Positions 16,600 through 33,668 of a stretch of 50,142 bases of DNA are shown one piece after another. The stretch is from the NCBI GenBank assembly GCA_947457545.1, contig CANGXD010000013.1, forward strand, positions 1-50,142. Direction: 5' to 3'. A program made the position numbers and the translations under genes. The number at the start of each line of letters is the position of its first letter. Positions within the stretch are counted from its first letter, which is position 1. The stretch comes from Gemmatimonadaceae bacterium. Lineage in GTDB: Bacteria; Gemmatimonadota; Gemmatimonadetes; Gemmatimonadales; Gemmatimonadaceae. The notes beneath the pieces are model-generated. The model was not told the origin of the DNA. It did not search any database and saw nothing but the letters and a program-made list of their open reading frames with translations.

Positions 16600-17976
16600 T
16601 TACGGGTTGCGGTCGATGCACCCGCCCGGCGCCTTCGGATTGTTCTGTTCGTCGAAGGGGATGGGAAGATTGACATCGTTGCCGTACACACCGGCCAACG
16701 GCGACGGCAGGTTGCCCGTCGGGAATACCGTGTTGGCCGCACGACCGTACTGCCGCACGAGACGACGGAGGTCGCCCAGACGGTGGCCGGTGAGATAGAG
16801 CCACTTGGCCCGCTCCTCGAAGAGCAGCGAAACGGCGGCTTCCTGCGTGGCGGGCGCCGAGCCCGCCAACGCGGGCATGGCCGGCGAGATCGCCGTGGCG
16901 CGCAGGTTGTTCAGCCCTGCGAACACCGCTTCACGATCGGCCGGCGTGTCGCGACGCAAACGTGCCTCGAGTTCGATGAGGCGCGCCTCGACGCCGTTCG
17001 CCACCACGGCTCCCGTGGAACGGTCGTACTTGAGCTGCGTGGGGAGGTTGCGGCTGGAGCCGTTGAACCCCGTACGCGTGGATGCCACCCACGGGATACG
17101 CGGATCGGCGGGCGTCGTCAGGAAGGCGACACCGTTGAGCCCCTCGCCGCGACCGTTCGCGTCAGGCAACACGATGGCATAGCGGGAATTCGCCACCGTC
17201 AGCGCGTTCCACATGCCATTCTCCTGGCGAGGCGACGCGACGGAGTGCGCCGTCACCCACGCGAAGGTCGTGGGCACCGCCGCCACGGCGGCCGCGGCAT
17301 CGTCGAAGCGACCCTGGTTGAGCAGCACACGCGCACGACCGATACGGGCAATGTTCTGCACGCGCGCGTCAGTGCCGGCACTGGCCAGCGCCGAGTCGAA
17401 GCTGGCGAGGGCGCGGGCGTAGATCTGCACCGTGGTCTGCGGGGTGCCGAACTCGGTACCCGAATCGGTCTCCTCGGAGAACGGCACGCCGGAGCAGTAC
17501 GCTTCGGCGAAGAACGTCTCGGTGAAGCCGCGGACGCCGTACATCTCACCGATGTTCTGCACGGGCGTTGGCGCCACCTTGCGGAGCACGTTGATCGTAC
17601 GCGTCGCGCCCGCCCGCACACGATGCAGGTTGCGGTAGAACGTGTCCATTTCGGGCAGATTGTTGTTCATCGCCCGCTGGTTCGGAAAGAGGCGGCCGTC
17701 GAACGTATCCGTGGAGTACAACTCGTCGGACACGTTGCCGGTCACGACGATCATGTTCTCCAGACTGGCGTTGCCGCTGTAGACGTTCTGGAAGTCCGCG
17801 ACCACGCCCAACCGCAGCGGCCCAGCGCCGGCGGTGGTGGCATAGTCACCAACATTGAGGACGTCGGGATCGGTGATCTCGAGCGTATCGGTGGAACAGC
17901 CCGCCGCCACACCGACGGCGAGGAATGCAGCACTCGCCGGACGGATGAATCGACGAGTCACGAATGGGAATCGCAT
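16600..17976 (-). CDS. SusD/RagB-type outer-membrane lipoprotein
   Basis: Surface nutrient-binding lipoprotein that caps the SusC channel encoded just upstream. 458 residues with a lipobox ending VAAGC (lipidated Cys27) after MRFPFVTRRF. The N-terminal region LEITDPDVLNVGDYATT and the helical repeat region (about 60-230) follow the Gemmatimonadota/Bacteroidota SusD pattern, and the C-terminal stretch LLFEERAKWLYLTGHRLGDLRRLVRQYG is the conserved SusD end. The gene starts 19 bases after the SusC stop, so they form one operon. There is no glycoside hydrolase or sigma/anti-sigma gene nearby, so the substrate (glycan or peptide) is open. Confidence 0.88.
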   Translation of the reverse strand: MRFPFVTRRFIRPASAAFLAVGVAAGCSTDTLEITDPDVLNVGDYATTAGAGPLRLGVVADFQNVYSGNASLENMIVVTGNVSDELYSTDTFDGRLFPNQRAMNNNLPEMDTFYRNLHRVRAGATRTINVLRKVAPTPVQNIGEMYGVRGFTETFFAEAYCSGVPFSEETDSGTEFGTPQTTVQIYARALASFDSALASAGTDARVQNIARIGRARVLLNQGRFDDAAAAVAAVPTTFAWVTAHSVASPRQENGMWNALTVANSRYAIVLPDANGRGEGLNGVAFLTTPADPRIPWVASTRTGFNGSSRNLPTQLKYDRSTGAVVANGVEARLIELEARLRRDTPADREAVFAGLNNLRATAISPAMPALAGSAPATQEAAVSLLFEERAKWLYLTGHRLGDLRRLVRQYGRAANTVFPTGNLPSPLAGVYGNDVNLPIPFDEQNNPKAPGGCIDRNP

Positions 17977-17995: not shown

Positions 17996-20900
17996 TCAGA
18001 AGTTGAAGTTCATGCGGAACGTGAAGTAGCGCATCGGCGGCGTCGAGAAGAACTCTTCGTTACCGCGCGCGTCGCCGTTGCCAACGGTGGTTTCGGGGTC
18101 GACACCCGTGAACGGCGTCCAGACGCCCAGGTTACGGCCGGTGAGCACGACATTCCAGCGCTCGGCCTTGAGGGCCTTGGCCCAGCTGTTCGGCATCTGA
18201 TACGACATCGAGAGCTCGCGGAAGCGCGTGAACGACCCGTCTTCGTAGAAGCCGGTGAAGATCGACGCGGCGGCCGCGACGGCCTTCGCCTGCTCTTCGA
18301 GCGGCGCACCGGCGTACAAGCCCTGGCAGGAGATACCGGCCTGGCACTGGTGGCGCTTGGTGTTGTTGAGCTTCTTCATGCCCCACTTGGAGTCCATCTG
18401 GCCCGAGATGCGCAGCTTGCGGCCGAACAGTTCGAGCGAGGGGGTGAACGCCACTTCGCGCGTGGGGAAGCTGGGTCCGATGAACGTGTTGTTGCCGTAC
18501 GTCATCTCACCCGCGACCAGAATGCCGTCGCCGTTCGCGTCGTTGTACGTGTACGTGCGGCCCCACAAGCCATACAGCGGGAAGCCCGGCGAGTTGAGCT
18601 GCGTGTTACGGTTACCAGACGGAATCGGGCTCACGCCTTCACCGAGGGTGATGAGCTCGTTCTTGTTCGTCGACCCGGTGAGCACGAAGTCGAAGCCGAG
18701 CTTGTCGCTCGAGATCACCTTCTGGTTGTACACGATTTCCAGACCGGAATTGCGCACGTTGCCGATGTTCTCGAAACGCGACGTCACGCCGGCAATGGAC
18801 GGAGCCACACGACGCTCGATGAGCGCGTCGGTGGTGTTCTTGTCATAGTACGTGAGCTCGACATTCGACTTGCCATCGAACATGGTGAGGTCGAAGCCCG
18901 CTTCCGTTTCGGCCGAATACTCAGGGCGGAGCGTGGAGTTACCCAGCGCGCCGAGCGTCACGCCCGGCTGATCCGCCTGTCCGGAGATGGTTGTAGCGAA
19001 CGGCGAGAAAAAGCGGAGCGCGTCGGTCGCGCCAGGGATCTGGCCGGAGGCACCGTACGTGGCACGCAGACGCAGCGTGTTGATCCAGGTGGTGGTCGGG
19101 AAGAAGCCCTGGTCCGACACCACCCACGAGGCGCCGACCTTTGGATAGTTGACGGCGCGGAAGTCCTTACCAAAGGCGCTGGCCGCGTCGCGGCGCACAC
19201 CGGCGGTAATAAAGAGCTTCTCGTTCACCGAGAACACCTGCTCGAGGTAGTAGCCAAGCGTACGACGCTCATCGAACGACTGCGACGCGTTGCGCACGGC
19301 GGCGGCCGTAATGGTGGTCGCGCCCGGGGGCAACGACTGGCCGGTGCCTTCCGACTGACCGAAGGAGTTGCGGATGTACTGCATACCCACGGAGGTCTTC
19401 GAGTTCAGCCACGGGAACACCTGCTTGTTCGCCGTACCACCGAGATCGACCGTCTGCTGGTTGATTTCGGCGCGGTTGGCGCTGATCTGGCCAACGCGAT
19501 TCACGCCGAGAATGCTCTGATCGAACAGGTTGATGCCGAGATCGCTGCGCGACGTGAAGTCGGAACCGATCGTGGCGCGGGTGGTGAGCCAGCTGATCGG
19601 GTTGTACTGCAGCTGCACGCTGTTGATGAAGCGGTTGATCGACTGGCTGGTCGTACGCGAGAGGATGTCGCCCATCGGGAACGCGCGATAGCCGAGCAGC
19701 TTGACACCACGGCCGTCGACCAGGTCTTCACGCCACTCACCACCGAGCATACCGACCATGAGGCCGTTGCCGTTGTCTTCATTCTGCGGAAGGCGCTGAC
19801 GGCTGTTGATGTAGCTCGTGGAGACCAGCAACGTCGCCTTGGGGGTGATCTGCGCCGTCACGTTGGCGCGCAAGCTGTTGCGATCGAGTGCGTTCGGGCG
19901 AACCTGACTGGACGGAATGCTCGAAACACCCCGTTCGGTCTTCAGGCGGTTGATTTCGATGTCCGGCATCTTGTAGATGCCCGTTTCGACTTCCGTTTCG
20001 CCGGACACGAAGAACTGCACCTTTTCGGTGCCACCCGACACCTGCATGCCGTACTGCTGGCGGGCGCCCTGATCGACCGGCGACAAGCTGTCGATGAGGA
20101 ACGCGTTACCCACGCGAAGGCTGTCGGCGCGGCAGATGGACGCCGCGATCGAGATGGCGGGGCAGCGGACGCGCGTACCGGCCGCGGCGCCGCTGAGCTG
20201 CGTGCCCCAGCCGTAGTACATGAGCGGGTACGTGTTCGGATCGGTGATCGCACCGTTTTCCGTGTACACGTTCCAGCGGGTCTTGCCCGCCTTGCCGCGC
20301 TTGGTGGTGATGTTGATAACGCCGTTGGCCGCTTCCGTGCCGTACAGCGTGGCCGCCGAGGGGCCCTTCACCACTTCGATGTTTTCGATTTCCTCGGGGT
20401 TGAGGTCATCGAGACGCGAGGGCGTGGAACCACCGACACCGATGGAGGAGCTACCGGCGTTAGCGGTCATACGCACGCCGTCGATGATCACGACCGGATC
20501 GTTGGAGAGCGACAGCGACGCCTGACCGCGAATACGGATACGCGAACCGGCACCCGTGGCACCCGCCGACACGACCTGCACACCGGCCGCACGGCCGGAG
20601 AGCAGCTGGCCCATGTTCGACACCGGCAACTCCGCGACCTTTTCGGCCACGGCGATCTGCGTGGTGGCGTTGGCCAGTTCGACCTTACGCTGCTGGCCCG
20701 TCACCGTCGTGACGACGGCAGACAGCGAGAAGGCAGCCTGCGTGAGCGCCACGTCCTGTGTAACAGGCGCCGTGCCGCTGATCGTCACGGTCACCTTCTT
20801 GGCTTCGTAGCCAATGCGACTGATTTCGAGCACAACCGCCCCGCTCGTCGGGACGCGCAGGGTGTAGCGGCCGTTTTCCGCGGTCAGCGAACCGACCTGC

Positions 20901-21064
20901 GTGCCTTGCACCAGCACGCGGGCCTGCTGGATCGGCTGCCCGGTGGCGCCGTCGGTCACGCGACCGGTGACGGTGCCACCGGCGCCCTGTGCGGACAAGG
21001 AGGGCGGCGTTGCCAGTCCCACGGCCGCCACGACCGCAAGAAGTGATGTGGCCAGACGGCGCAT
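17996..21064 (-). CDS. SusC/RagA-type TonB-dependent outer-membrane transporter
   Basis: Energy-coupled outer-membrane channel of about 1022 residues. A signal peptide (MRRLATSLLAVVAAVGLATP) is followed by a carboxypeptidase-regulatory-like domain (VTGRVTDGATGQPIQQARV), the plug with VVIIDGVRM and IENIEVVKGPSAATLYGTEA, and a long 22-strand-type barrel ending in aromatic YFTFRMNFNF. ATG 21064 is preferred for the signal peptide; ATG 21148 has a better ribosome site (GGGGAG seven bases upstream) and would add 28 residues. It is paired with the SusD gene. The 612-base stretch upstream suggests a long leader or a regulatory region. Confidence 0.9.
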   Translation of the reverse strand: MRRLATSLLAVVAAVGLATPPSLSAQGAGGTVTGRVTDGATGQPIQQARVLVQGTQVGSLTAENGRYTLRVPTSGAVVLEISRIGYEAKKVTVTISGTAPVTQDVALTQAAFSLSAVVTTVTGQQRKVELANATTQIAVAEKVAELPVSNMGQLLSGRAAGVQVVSAGATGAGSRIRIRGQASLSLSNDPVVIIDGVRMTANAGSSSIGVGGSTPSRLDDLNPEEIENIEVVKGPSAATLYGTEAANGVINITTKRGKAGKTRWNVYTENGAITDPNTYPLMYYGWGTQLSGAAAGTRVRCPAISIAASICRADSLRVGNAFLIDSLSPVDQGARQQYGMQVSGGTEKVQFFVSGETEVETGIYKMPDIEINRLKTERGVSSIPSSQVRPNALDRNSLRANVTAQITPKATLLVSTSYINSRQRLPQNEDNGNGLMVGMLGGEWREDLVDGRGVKLLGYRAFPMGDILSRTTSQSINRFINSVQLQYNPISWLTTRATIGSDFTSRSDLGINLFDQSILGVNRVGQISANRAEINQQTVDLGGTANKQVFPWLNSKTSVGMQYIRNSFGQSEGTGQSLPPGATTITAAAVRNASQSFDERRTLGYYLEQVFSVNEKLFITAGVRRDAASAFGKDFRAVNYPKVGASWVVSDQGFFPTTTWINTLRLRATYGASGQIPGATDALRFFSPFATTISGQADQPGVTLGALGNSTLRPEYSAETEAGFDLTMFDGKSNVELTYYDKNTTDALIERRVAPSIAGVTSRFENIGNVRNSGLEIVYNQKVISSDKLGFDFVLTGSTNKNELITLGEGVSPIPSGNRNTQLNSPGFPLYGLWGRTYTYNDANGDGILVAGEMTYGNNTFIGPSFPTREVAFTPSLELFGRKLRISGQMDSKWGMKKLNNTKRHQCQAGISCQGLYAGAPLEEQAKAVAAAASIFTGFYEDGSFTRFRELSMSYQMPNSWAKALKAERWNVVLTGRNLGVWTPFTGVDPETTVGNGDARGNEEFFSTPPMRYFTFRMNFNF

Positions 21065-21616
21065 CACAGGCGCGCGGAATGATGTGGCGTGTGGTGGCGA
21101 GCAGCCTCGCTCGCCACGTGCGAACGCAGCGGGTACGAACAATCGCATCTCGTGACTCCCCATCTCAGGATCACCTGCCGGCCACACGATATTGTGACCG
21201 GCCATGACATGACCCCAACGCCCCGCTCCACCAGAAGGGGAGACGGTCCGTTGGTCATGCCACTTTCAAGCGCAGAGCCAGACAGCGCTCCGCAAACTCG
21301 TGTTGTTGCCGGACGGCCCACGTGCAGGACGTCGTGGCGATATGTCGGGAGCGTACGCGGAAGACGCGCGCGCAGTGAGGCGGGAGTGATGCGGTTGATG
21401 TACAGCGATGTCCGCGGCACGCACACCGGAACGGTCAGGCTGCGCACACAAACGGTGCAGCATGCCAACAACACGATTCCGGAACAACTGTGACGAAACG
21501 CGAACGGGAGGGACGCTACGACCGGCATTCCATGCTGTCAATACTTTTGCGCACTTCAAAGCGTTAAATCCCACAGATCCGTGCACAAAAGTTCCCGCCG
21601 TCGAAATTCACAACAA
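21065..21616. other. Gene-free region upstream of susC
   Basis: About 550 bases between the SusC start and the cytochrome c terminator. I see no supported gene; open frames here lack a ribosome site and known similarity. It holds the susC upstream signals, including a possible ribosome site near 21157 for a longer SusC start and a candidate promoter near 21513-21541. The 21530-21620 part is clearly more AT-rich than its surroundings. Confidence 0.5.
21513..21541 (-). promoter_or_regulatory. Candidate promoter for susC-susD
   Basis: On the minus strand a perfect TTGACA (21541-21536) is followed after 17 bases by TAGCGT (21518-21513), which matches only three of six -10 positions. The implied leader would be roughly 440 bases. 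The evidence is the exact -35 hexamer and its location in the AT-rich patch. Confidence 0.3.
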
Positions 21617-29213: not shown

Positions 29214-31046
29214 TCAATACGCCCAGGGAATCCCGTCGCGGGCAGCGGTAAGCACGGCAGTCAGCACGGTCTGCGCACGTTCGATCACCACGCCGTCACC
29301 GGTGCGCCTCGTCCGTTCCAGCTGCACGCGCACGGTGTATTGCTCGCCCGCCGTGAGCCCGGTGACGCCGAATGCCTGCGCCGTCCAGGCCCACCGGCTT
29401 CCCTCGCTGTTGCGCGCCGTACTGTCGAAGGGCACCACAGTACTCCGGACCAAGGTGCCACCGTCGCGCCCCTGGTCGCGGCGGCGGACTTCGATGCGGA
29501 GCTGCGAGGCTTTGGCTGCCCATTGTCGGTAGCGCGGGGGCAGCGAGAGCACGGCCACTGCTCCGGTGTCTGGCAACGTGACGACACCGCGCCATTGCGA
29601 CGCCTGCAGACGGTCGTCGCGGAGCATATCGATGCTGATGATGTCGAGCTGCGGGTTAACCACTTTGGCGTCGCGCAAGTCATCAAACCCGCCGAACTGC
29701 GTTCGCACCGACATCGCGAGATCGTCGTGCGGCGTGATCGTGTTGCTCATGACGATGCCGGTGGCATTCGTCGCACTGAGCGCGCCGTGCGTTCCCCCGA
29801 GGGGGCGCATACGATTGGCGACCGATACCATCCCCAACCCGACACGATACTTATCGTCGAGCGACACGAGAATGGGCGCTGCATTTCGCGCAGCGCGGAG
29901 ATGCCCGTGCACGATTCGCACGACGGCTACCGGATACCTGGCGGCGGCGGTGTACCGTGTCCATACGTCGGCGGTAGCGAACCCGTCAGCATCGAGCACG
30001 CCGTCGGCTCGCATACGCGCCTGCACCTCTGCCAGCGCCAGCGGATCGCCCGTGATGGACTGATACCCGAACTGTGCGCTGTCGCGACGGACGCGCCACG
30101 ACACGCGCCCTTCGGCGCGACGCATAGTGCCGTCCGGCCCCTTGATCGCACGCTCAACGAAAAAGAGCGAATCGGACTGTTGCCGTGTCACCAGATCGAC
30201 GCCCGGTACATCGGCCAGCAATCCGGCGACCCGCTGCACGGAATCCGCATGACAGAACACACCGAACCCGGTCGTCACCCCGTCGACACTGAACGCGATG
30301 TGGTTCGAGGCGGTGATGGCACGTGCAGCGGTAAATCCGTGCGCAGCCAACGCTTCAATGATCGGAACGAACTGCGCATCGAGCCCGCGGTTGTGACCAT
30401 GGTCGGAAAGCAGCACAATCTCCAAGGTACGCCCGGTCCGCGCGCGATATCGCGACTGCAGTTCGGTGAGCTTGGCATCGAGATGATCGAGATACGGGCC
30501 AATCTCTCCCCGCGTATGCTGCAGCGCGTCGGGGCCCACATTGTACAGGTACACGGTGCGTCGACCGCGAGACGAAAGAATATTCTCGATGTCGGTGTCG
30601 ACCTCGCGCCGGGCAACCGGCGATGAGATCAGATACGCGCCGAGATGGTGAAACTTGGTGTCGAAGGCGTAATCCATGCGCTCTTCGTACTCGATCGGGC
30701 TGATGGCCGAGAGCGCGTCGCCGAGCACGGCATTGTGGCGCGTACTGTAGAACACCCGCTGGTACCCGGCAGGCGGATACACGCCAAAGATGGCGTGCCA
30801 GGCCACGTCGCTGATGGACGGGAACGTCGAGATCAGCCGTCCCGGTTCATTGAATGAAGCGAACTTCCCCCGCGCTCGCGCGTCCTGCACATCCCGGTAG
30901 TCCACGCCGTCGAGTGCCAGCACCGCGCGCTGGGGCAGTTCGTCGGGGGGAACGGTACGACGCAGCGGGGTACACGCGGAGGCCGCGATGCTCACCAGCA
31001 CCGCCGCCATCAGCCTGAGCTTGCTCCACCGGAGGGCGAGAGTCAT
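29214..31046 (-). CDS. Lipoprotein alkaline-phosphatase-superfamily phosphodiesterase
   Basis: 610 residues with a lipobox (LVSIAASAC), so likely membrane-anchored outside the cytoplasm. The N-terminal half matches the type I phosphodiesterase/nucleotide pyrophosphatase family: ALDGVDYRDV carries the first metal-binding Asp, FPSISDVAW stands where the nucleophile loop is expected, and EIVLLSDHGHNRG gives the Asp-His metal pair. The last ~170 residues are probably beta-rich and have no family I recognise. It is followed by the tricorn-like gene in the same direction after 162 bases and is divergent from the plug-TonB gene. The substrate is not evident. Confidence 0.8.
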   Translation of the reverse strand: MTLALRWSKLRLMAAVLVSIAASACTPLRRTVPPDELPQRAVLALDGVDYRDVQDARARGKFASFNEPGRLISTFPSISDVAWHAIFGVYPPAGYQRVFYSTRHNAVLGDALSAISPIEYEERMDYAFDTKFHHLGAYLISSPVARREVDTDIENILSSRGRRTVYLYNVGPDALQHTRGEIGPYLDHLDAKLTELQSRYRARTGRTLEIVLLSDHGHNRGLDAQFVPIIEALAAHGFTAARAITASNHIAFSVDGVTTGFGVFCHADSVQRVAGLLADVPGVDLVTRQQSDSLFFVERAIKGPDGTMRRAEGRVSWRVRRDSAQFGYQSITGDPLALAEVQARMRADGVLDADGFATADVWTRYTAAARYPVAVVRIVHGHLRAARNAAPILVSLDDKYRVGLGMVSVANRMRPLGGTHGALSATNATGIVMSNTITPHDDLAMSVRTQFGGFDDLRDAKVVNPQLDIISIDMLRDDRLQASQWRGVVTLPDTGAVAVLSLPPRYRQWAAKASQLRIEVRRRDQGRDGGTLVRSTVVPFDSTARNSEGSRWAWTAQAFGVTGLTAGEQYTVRVQLERTRRTGDGVVIERAQTVLTAVLTAARDGIPWAY

Positions 31047-31131
31047 GATTCATCGTAGCTGCCTGATGCGTCTGCACAAGGCCGCGCGTGCGGCCAGTGC
31101 CGGCGACCTTCCCCCGCGACTCGTTCTTCCT

Positions 31132-32280
31132 ATGCCCAGATTGCTCGCGCTCCGCTGCGCAATGGCGGCAACGGCGTTCGTCGGCTCGGCGCTCTCCGCG
31201 CAGTCCGCGACGGGGACCGGCACGGTGAAGGGCACTGTACTGAGTGCACTGGGGTTGCCCATTGTCGGTGCCCAGGTTCGCCTCGTGGTGCCGAATGGTG
31301 GAACCTCCGCGGCAGTGGAGTCGGATGAAAATGGCGGCTTTGCCGCGGCCCGCGTGCCGTCTGGAACGGTATGGTTGGTCGCCAAGCGCATCGGGTACCG
31401 TCCCGATTCGGTACGCGTGACCGTCGGCGGCGCAGAGCCCACGAACGCCACGGTGCGCCTCGAGCGCATCGCGGTTGAACTCACCACCGTCAAGGTGCTT
31501 GGCCGCCGCGACATCACGGGTCACTTGGCAGGTTTCTATAGCCGGATGGGTTACGGCAGCGGGCGCTTTTTCACGGCCACCGATATCGAACGGCGCAACA
31601 GCACGAATCTTTCTGACATCTTTCGGATGATCCCCGGTCTCCGCATCGAAACGCGTGGATTTCAGAATGTCGTGCGCATGCGCGGCAGCCGCTGCGCGCC
31701 GCTGGTGTGGCTCGACGGCCAACCGCTGTACGCCGGCGAAGTGGATCTCGACGCATTCGACGCGCGAAGCTTTGACGGCGTGGAAGTCTACAGCGGCGCA
31801 GCCAGCGTACCCGTGGAGTTTCAGGGTAATCAACGCATGAGCAGCGCCTGCGGGACGATCATTCTCTGGTCCAAACGCGGTGAGCTGCGCGAAAAGAAAC
31901 GCAAGAAAGACGAGCCGACACCCACCGAGCGCATCACCGCGCTCCTTGAAGGCGGCAGCGCCTTCGTGGTGACCGATGTCGACCTGACGGCGAGCCCGGA
32001 CTCCTTCAATCTCGTGCGCCCCATTTACCCCGACTCGCTCTTCGAAGCACAGACACCGGGACGTGTGCTCGCCGAGTTCATCGTGTCGCCCAGCGGTGAG
32101 GCGGTGATGGAAACATTCAGCGCCGTCACCACCACGCACCGACTGTTTGTCGAGCCGGTACGTCGCGCCGTGCGCGACCAGCGGTTTACCCCGGCGTTCA
32201 AACGCGGGAAGCCGGTGCAGCAGGTCATGCAGCTTCCCTTCGAGTTCGTCCCCGACTCCACCGCACGACGTCGCAAGTGA
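31132..32280 (+). CDS. Barrel-less TonB-receptor plug fused to a TonB C-terminal domain
   Basis: 382 residues. Signal peptide 1-24 (ends GSALSAQ); carboxypeptidase-regulatory-like domain about 30-112 (VKGTVLSALGLPIVGAQVRL); plug domain about 125-255 with IFRMIPGLRIETRG, VWLDGQPLY and FDGVEVYSG; a Lys/Glu-rich linker 251-265; and a TonB C-terminal domain about 295-375 (RVLAEFIVSPSGEAVMETFS, then FTPAFKRGKPVQQVMQLPF). No barrel strands are present between plug and TonB domain. ATG 31132 is chosen for the signal peptide. It has no inner-membrane anchor beyond the signal, so it cannot be a standard TonB. The next gene starts two bases after its stop. Confidence 0.8.
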   Translation: MPRLLALRCAMAATAFVGSALSAQSATGTGTVKGTVLSALGLPIVGAQVRLVVPNGGTSAAVESDENGGFAAARVPSGTVWLVAKRIGYRPDSVRVTVGGAEPTNATVRLERIAVELTTVKVLGRRDITGHLAGFYSRMGYGSGRFFTATDIERRNSTNLSDIFRMIPGLRIETRGFQNVVRMRGSRCAPLVWLDGQPLYAGEVDLDAFDARSFDGVEVYSGAASVPVEFQGNQRMSSACGTIILWSKRGELREKKRKKDEPTPTERITALLEGGSAFVVTDVDLTASPDSFNLVRPIYPDSLFEAQTPGRVLAEFIVSPSGEAVMETFSAVTTTHRLFVEPVRRAVRDQRFTPAFKRGKPVQQVMQLPFEFVPDSTARRRK

Positions 32281-32282
32281 TC

Positions 32283-32732
32283 ATGTTCAAACCGTACTCT
32301 CGCACTGCACGAGCCCGCGCGCTCGTTGGCGCCGGCGTCGTGCTCGCGATCGGCACATCGCCGACAGCCCTAGCGGCGCAGCGCTCCGTCGCACGCCAGG
32401 AAATCGGCAAAACGTCGGTCGGAACGCCCACCCCGGTCTTTCTCGAAACGCGCTCTGTGTCTCGCGAAGGAGCGGTCGTGACGGCCACTATTCGGGTCGC
32501 GCTGGTGCCACCGCTCAAGCACCCGAAGGGCGAGCTGAAGTCATCGCGCACGATCGGCATGTACAACTGCGCGCAGAAAACCGTGGCCACCAAGGAAAGT
32601 TGGTACTATCTCGACGACGCCGGAAAACGTGAGGGCATGCACCGCGTGGTCAAGATCCCCGGCTTCGGACCTGTCGGCAAAGGCTCGGTCGCCGACGTGG
32701 CGCTTACGCATCTGTGCGCCAAGACGCCGTAA
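32283..32732 (+). CDS. Exported surface-adhesin E-like protein
   Basis: 149 residues, with a signal peptide (RARALVGAGVVLAIGTSPTALAAQ begins after MFKPYSRTA). The mature part fits the surface-adhesin protein E family seen in many Gram-negatives: an N-terminal strand pair, KSSRTIGMYNCAQKTVAT with a Cys, SWYYLDDAGK, and a final ADVALTHLCAKTP with the second Cys, which probably forms a disulfide. It begins two bases after the plug-TonB fusion gene, so both are likely made together. The family's function is not settled. Confidence 0.7.
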   Translation: MFKPYSRTARARALVGAGVVLAIGTSPTALAAQRSVARQEIGKTSVGTPTPVFLETRSVSREGAVVTATIRVALVPPLKHPKGELKSSRTIGMYNCAQKTVATKESWYYLDDAGKREGMHRVVKIPGFGPVGKGSVADVALTHLCAKTP

Positions 32733-32765
32733 CGTTCCGGAAGGCGCCGACGATTACACGGTGAA

Positions 32766-33668
32766 CTAGCGTTCGCGTGCCGCAAGCACGACGCCGCCGA
32801 TGACGGCCACCGCGCCCACGATGCCGACGCTCGACAATTGCTCTCCCCAGAGGAAATACGCGGCGATGACCGCCAAGACCGGCTCCAGCGTGGCGATTGT
32901 CGACGCCCGGGACGGGCCGATGAGGCGCAGGCCATTGGCATTCGACAGGTATGCGCCGTAAGTCGCCACGGAAGCGAGAAAGGCGATCGCCGCCCACGCG
33001 CGCCACGTAAACGCGCCCCACTGCACAAAGGGGGCGAGCACAACGGCGCCCGTGGCGAGGGCCCACGACATGACGCGGGCCGGCGCGTTCTTCCCGAATA
33101 GGGATCGACCGAGGAGAAAGTACGCGGCGTAGGCGACGCCGGAGCCGAGTCCCCACGCGACTGCGGCCGGGGTGGCCTGCAGGTCAGCATTGCCGGTAGC
33201 CGGGAATAGGGCGACAAGCACCACCCCGCCCAGCGTGAAGAGTAACGCCGCTGCTTCGCGCGGTCGGACGCGCTCACGGAACACGAGATAGGTGCCGATC
33301 GCGACCCACACGGGGGCGGAGTACAGCAAAATGGCCGAGAGCGCGGCGCCGCCAAGTTGGACACTCTTGAAGTAGGCCACATACAGGCCGGCCACCGCGA
33401 CCACCCCCAACGCCATCGCCGACGCGCGATCACCAGCGCGCAGCGCATCCGCTCGCGTTACCGTCGCGTGGGCGGCAAAGAGCAGTGCGGCGATCGACGC
33501 GCGCCAGAAGGCGACCGTCAGCGGCGCGACCCCTTCTGCAAACGCCACGCGCGCGACAGGCCCCAGCAGAGCCCATTGAAATGCGGCAGCAACGACAAGC
33601 CAGACACCGACGCGACCGGTGGAGGCGCTGCGGCGTGGCGATTTCCCTGACATCGAAGCGGCAGTCAT
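32766..33668 (-). CDS. DMT-family (EamA) transporter
   Basis: 300 residues with ten predicted membrane helices arranged as two EamA repeats (VGVWLVVAAAFQWALLGP... and TPAAVAWGLGSGVAYAAYFLL...). Short charged ends and the segment ATLEPVLAVIAAYFLWGEQL near helix nine are typical of drug/metabolite exporters such as RhaT/YdcZ-like proteins. The substrate cannot be predicted. It converges on the adhesin-E-like gene (33 bases) and is divergent from the multicopper oxidase gene, with 53 bases between starts that must hold both promoters. Confidence 0.88.
   Translation of the reverse strand: MTAASMSGKSPRRSASTGRVGVWLVVAAAFQWALLGPVARVAFAEGVAPLTVAFWRASIAALLFAAHATVTRADALRAGDRASAMALGVVAVAGLYVAYFKSVQLGGAALSAILLYSAPVWVAIGTYLVFRERVRPREAAALLFTLGGVVLVALFPATGNADLQATPAAVAWGLGSGVAYAAYFLLGRSLFGKNAPARVMSWALATGAVVLAPFVQWGAFTWRAWAAIAFLASVATYGAYLSNANGLRLIGPSRASTIATLEPVLAVIAAYFLWGEQLSSVGIVGAVAVIGGVVLAARER

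Follow-up and report, generated by a model that had tools for sequence, protein, structure and literature searches.

A barrel-less TonB-receptor plug joined to a TonB C-terminal domain in Gemmatimonadaceae, a possible accessory of SusCD import

Results

In the DNA analyzed here (50,142 nucleotides from a Gemmatimonadaceae bacterium, contig CANGXD010000013.1 of assembly GCA_947457545.1; hereafter, the window), the plus-strand gene at 31132..32280 encodes a protein of 382 residues in which a SusC-type N-terminal extension (NTE) and a TonB-receptor plug are followed by a charged linker and a TonB C-terminal domain (TonB_C), in the place where a receptor would have its barrel. It does not stand alone: Gemmatimonadota have a family of barrel-less plugs, of which this protein forms one branch. 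We tentatively suggest that it assists TonB-dependent (SusCD) import as an exported accessory protein, most likely in the periplasm, working through contacts between TonB_C and TonB boxes.

Domain architecture

The NTE, the plug, and TonB_C each score above their own Pfam cut-off, and all three were matched by fold. The order given by the first-pass annotation, made from the sequence alone, is borne out: predicted signal peptide, carboxypeptidase-regulatory domain, plug, and then linker and TonB_C replacing the barrel. The Pfam scan of the protein returned no barrel family, the open reading frame stops at 32280 after TonB_C, and the SusC/RagA profile TIGR04056 (981 positions) aligns over its first 87 positions only. 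The protein also lacks a proline-rich spacer of the TonB type, the NTE and plug occupying that stretch; both halves of the usual contact do lie on one exported protein, as first annotated. Its N terminus is hydrophobic and continues into a conserved AQ resembling a cleavage site; A23 and Q24 are at least 90% conserved in the alignment, Q24 reaching 94% over the wider homologue set, and we infer cleavage before Q24. The features are as follows (dN/dS, ratio of nonsynonymous to synonymous substitution rates).

31132..32280, plus strand: gene of the NTE-plug-TonB_C protein, 382 residues (open reading frame list, Pfam, homologues, dN/dS)
31132..31200, plus strand: predicted signal peptide, residues 1-23 (homologue alignment)
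31213..31482, plus strand: NTE or carboxypeptidase-regulatory domain, residues 28-117
31480..31506, plus strand: degenerate TonB-box-like segment LTTVKVLGR, residues 117-125 (alignment to MVDEVVVTG of a solved SusC)
31546..31878, plus strand: barrel-less plug, residues 139-249 (Pfam; fold matches 6z9a_B, Fiu, FyuA, OprC)
31693..31695, plus strand: codon TGC of Cys188, proposed to form a disulfide with Cys240
31849..31851, plus strand: codon TGC of Cys240, the proposed disulfide partner of Cys188
31879..31980, plus strand: charged linker, residues 250-283, where the barrel would be (sequence)
31981..32259, plus strand: TonB C-terminal domain, residues 284-376

Conservation and spread of the family

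An orthologue (at least 52% identity, some cut by contig ends) is present in 27 of the 30 genomes of the genus that were searched; one of the remaining genomes (G007) has none, and two (G008 and G018) have a 37% relative only. Compared with its two closest orthologues (94%), the whole gene has a dN/dS of 0.07-0.09, and the TonB_C part alone has values of 0 and 0.054. Two protein searches at E 1e-3 yielded 406 and 426 passing homologues, 120 of each being listed; the admitted length range was 0.55-1.75 times that of the query, and full receptors therefore could not turn up in them. A precomputed TonB_C label is carried by 88 of the 120 listed from the set of 406, and three of the 32 unlabelled proteins (P0071, P0094, P0099) align through the TonB_C region like the other homologues. 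Names given in databases to listed members include "TonB family protein," "energy transducer TonB," and "carboxypeptidase regulatory-like domain-containing protein."

The missing barrel could in itself suggest a degenerate receptor fragment or a sequencing artefact. With homologues labelled TonB_C, orthologues across the genus, and a gene under purifying selection, we reject a frame error, and consider a decayed receptor or an artefact to have a practically negligible probability. The TonB_C assignment of the first-pass annotation stands, with its profile match above the Pfam cut-off.

Among the matches listed, the named homologues belong to Gemmatimonadota only (or are called "bacterium"). 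The family profile (E 1e-20), searched within Gemmatimonadota, matches in 167 of 200 genomes of the phylum, mostly through the NTE-plug part, barrel status not being checked singly; all those of the listed matches that reach the TonB_C end belong to the window's own family. Further plugs without a barrel, terminating directly after the plug, are encoded in these genomes. Three genes of this type without TonB_C are adjacent at one locus (G000:C98:81-3406; L182, L184, L190). The first-pass interpretation is partly upheld: the two halves do share one chain, with a stable protein-E-like neighbour in the genus, but the protein belongs to a wider family of barrel-less plugs.

Paired cysteines in the plug

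Cys188 and Cys240 occur as a pair or not at all: 69 of the 80 TonB_C-tailed homologues have the two, 11 lack both, and none (0/80) has just one. On the tree, the 11 homologues without cysteines form one clade of four and one of seven, which implies few independent joint changes, approximately two, so that a row-wise Fisher test on the pair overstates the evidence. In a comparison by hidden Markov model, cysteines occupy both positions in all but one of the 23 barrel-less rows (22 of 23; the exception is truncated where its locus ends, and some rows are the same gene in overlapping loci) and in both TonB_C-tailed rows. A cysteine at the first position is absent from all 13 receptor rows, whose alignment stopped short of the second. 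The pattern suggests that a Cys188-Cys240 disulfide probably staples the free plug. Given this probable extra disulfide, and since receptors carry a plug of their own, the earlier idea that the protein plugs other receptors appears unlikely.

Linkage to SusC and SusD genes

The gene of one relative (31-35% identity) is immediately followed by one for SusC. We examined 80 plug-TonB_C loci, which are not a random sample, since the queries used to retrieve them were the window protein and a relative linked to SusC. At 22 of them a same-strand SusC starts <600 nt downstream; nine others have a SusC within 5 kb, and six lie at most 1.5 kb from a contig end without SusC. All 10 neighbouring receptors scanned with NCBIfam (L054-L058, L253, L263, L268, L271, L280) are full-length SusC/RagA above the curated TIGR04056 cut-off; a Pfam scan of the L054-L058 receptors had found NTE and plug only, barrel length being settled by NCBIfam. 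A SusD-like match occurs within the fetched stretch at 18 of the 22 SusC-linked loci, the other four stretches stopping 2.7-3.6 kb downstream, and of four SusD-like proteins taken through Pfam, two score above the SusD_RagB cut-off and two just below. The SusC-linked genes fall at three places of the tree: a seven-member clade, 15 rows in a 19-member clade, and one isolated gene (23 rows are labelled as SusC-linked, one being a tandem copy). In the large clade, the upstream genes at 10 loci belong to one family, whose one scanned member is GDSL-lipase-like. As a measure of chance, G028 has 51 Plug matches in 4.7 Mb, one per ~92 kb, from which a SusC would adjoin a given gene by chance with a probability on the order of 0.3%. 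At one locus (L280:5957-12982), a single SusC/SusD pair is flanked by two plug-TonB_C genes on the same strand.

The window itself holds a full-length SusC/RagA gene at 17996-21205 on the minus strand, ~10 kb from the plug-TonB_C gene. The gene after it (16600-17976) has a weak TPR match only and is perhaps SusD-like.

TonB_C, the TonB box, and the Ton machinery of the genome

TonB_C of the window protein shares 43% identity, across 76 residues, with the C-terminal domain of the genome's own TonB (L082, a frame of 245 aa). That TonB has a membrane helix and a proline-rich spacer, and ExbD genes are also encoded; the window protein is therefore not needed as a motor link. Over 81 rows, TonB_C and the plug are about equally conserved (mean frequency of the commonest residue 0.563 versus 0.581), and the end of TonB_C stays conserved (V362, 1.00; Q364, 0.97; F372, 0.99). 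At the other end of the protein, positions 34-257 of the family profile align with the SusC homologue 5t3r_D. The position of the TonB box is kept: LTTVKVLGR aligns with MVDEVVVTG, although it is degenerate when compared with LEEVVVTG and LNEVITTG of linked SusC proteins. Divergence is also seen in the box of the SusC encoded in the window, LSAVVTTVTG.

Other proteins of these genomes carry TonB_C. In four genus genomes (L072-L075, one locus each) there are small exported-looking proteins with a signal-peptide-like start and TonB_C only. A membrane protein with two tandem TonB_C domains (L084/L096; G029:C1:4489711-4490271) has a first TonB_C that is 45% identical to that of the window protein, versus 43% for the real TonB of the genome; we take this protein to resemble an M56/BlaR1-type peptidase. 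In Bacteroidota, M56/BlaR1-like proteins are known to occur fused to TonB_C or to a plug.

As the first-pass annotation proposed, a soluble protein of this kind might serve as an inhibitory decoy, its TonB_C filling TonB boxes, or its box or plug filling TonB, with import damped as the result. We think this unlikely. The soluble architecture holding both halves, the closeness of TonB_C to that of the genome's TonB, and the exported TonB_C-only proteins would all suit a decoy; yet one half would suffice for it, whereas all domains are conserved together, and relatives directly upstream of one SusC suggest a dedicated partner over general damping.

Proposed role

Our preferred reading, which we hold with less than even confidence, remains that of an accessory of SusCD import. 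The N-terminal two thirds (NTE, degenerate TonB box, and plug) copy the periplasm-facing part of SusC, and the C-terminal domain copies the receptor-binding domain of TonB; the proposed Cys188-Cys240 disulfide would keep the plug folded without a barrel. The protein would then sit at the junction between TonB and SusC, where its TonB_C may pair strands with the TonB boxes of receptors and thereby modulate when the anchored TonB engages them, the NTE/plug part giving partner specificity or binding the periplasmic face of the receptor. The periplasmic location, the disulfide, the binding to TonB boxes, and the modulation are all inferred from sequence, which does not decide among help, relay, and block at the TonB/SusC contact.

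Several observations weigh against an accessory of SusCD import. The TonB box of the window protein is degenerate, and the two cysteines have changed jointly only about twice. No SusC accompanies 43 of the 80 plug-TonB_C genes, with six more ending within 1.5 kb, and because one of the two queries was itself SusC-linked, the count of 22 is biased upward. At the 16 long-flank genus loci, which represent the window's own clade, a SusC was looked for within 5 kb and never found. Furthermore, two of 17 control loci with barrel-less plugs lacking TonB_C (some overlapping, with flanks of ~1.5 kb) have a SusC nearby, both divergent; the link may thus belong to the plug and not to TonB_C.

The arrangement of box, plug, and TonB_C, in that order on one chain, is also what a periplasmic force relay would have: TonB would pull the box-like segment, the stapled plug would transmit the force, and TonB_C would pull the TonB box of SusC. 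The covariation of the cysteines fits a plug that does not unfold, and relatives are encoded with SusC. Nonetheless, the box is degenerate, binding at both ends is itself a proposal from sequence, and the cysteine pair is missing in the 11 homologues noted above, some of them beside SusC (L279, L280), so that we regard a relay as quite improbable.

The protein-E-fold neighbour and other flanking genes

Two bases past the plug-TonB_C gene, the first-pass annotation had placed an adhesin-E-like partner.

32277..32732, plus strand: exported protein of protein-E fold (Adhesin_E), coupled downstream gene, start GTG 32277 or ATG 32283

The protein E fold was matched for its product. The Haemophilus protein E family (PF16747) is 16% identical to it; the likeness is one of fold, and adhesion is not implied. 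A homologue adjoins on the same strand in 24 of the 27 genus genomes with an orthologue, the exceptions being two contig ends (G002, G013) and one genome (G009) from which the gene is absent; among the long-flank genus loci, the pair occurs in 15 of 16 and is lacking in one. Outside the genus clade, the gene was not found at the fetched loci, where 22 of 80 plug-TonB_C genes lie upstream of SusC instead. The partnership thus holds within the genus, and we reject it as a general rule. In G006, the protein-E-like gene gives matches in two frames near residue 45 (L035:10550-11003), through an assembly error or as a broken gene.

This neighbour bears on a further explanation, namely that NTE, plug, and TonB_C have been reused without TonB function, as modules for binding or scaffolding outside the cytoplasm (the cell surface being one possible site), involving the protein-E-fold partner in the window's clade. 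The constancy of that partner in the genus, the absence of a nearby SusC in the window's clade, the degenerate TonB box, and the occurrence of TonB_C in small exported proteins would all agree with such reuse. The ties of relatives to SusC at three places of the tree, and the conservation of V362, Q364, and F372 near the end of TonB_C, argue in the opposite direction, and we judge reuse rather unlikely.

On the other side, 29214-31046 encodes a 610-aa protein with no Pfam match at 0.001; a homologue lies on the opposite strand upstream of the plug-TonB_C gene at 10 of the 16 long-flank genus loci. A scan for sigma-70-type promoters over 30900-32900 found none, versus 0.2 expected, a result of little weight for Gemmatimonadota.

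Discussion

TonB coupling is described as a two-party contact, between an anchored TonB and the TonB box of a receptor. If the proposed role is correct, there would be a third party at this contact, kept across a bacterial family and encoded partly beside SusCD importers. A free-standing and probably disulfide-locked plug would also offer a handle on plug folding and on the NTE. Were the relay true, it would add an extra, exchangeable link to the Ton energy chain of Gemmatimonadaceae, encoded with individual SusCD importers.

Comparison with known systems

NTE, TonB-box position, and plug follow one another as in SusC receptors (e.g., BT1763; PMC7782687), where the NTE is placed before the TonB box and its function is called unknown, a role in TonB specificity having been suggested (PMC7782687). 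SusC receptors, however, have a barrel, which the window protein replaces with an appended TonB_C, and the first of the paired cysteines is absent from the 13 receptor rows. With TonB transducers, such as the genome's own (L082), the window protein shares the C-terminal domain (43% over 76 aa), but in place of a proline-rich spacer it has receptor domains, behind a signal-peptide-like N terminus. The MxcH-type siderophore receptors (NF038079), considered here from the profile only, also seem to combine a receptor with a TonB_C-like domain: the first 90 profile positions weakly match the TonB_C of the window protein (16.1 bits against a cut-off of 925, E 0.0022). In that profile the TonB_C-like domain comes first and the length is that of a receptor (792), whereas in the window protein TonB_C comes last and there is no barrel. 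The barrel-less CarboxypepD_reg-plug proteins of Gemmatimonadota have the same NTE-plug module, and the cysteine pair in 22 of 23 rows; these end at most 16 residues after the matched plug, have no TonB_C, and often have longer N-terminal frames. Titles and abstract openings of the open-licence papers searched mention no barrel-less plug joined to TonB_C, nor the paired cysteines or SusCD linkage of such proteins. Single domains are all known; what appears to be new is that one stand-alone exported protein combines them, with its paired cysteines and its linkage to SusCD.
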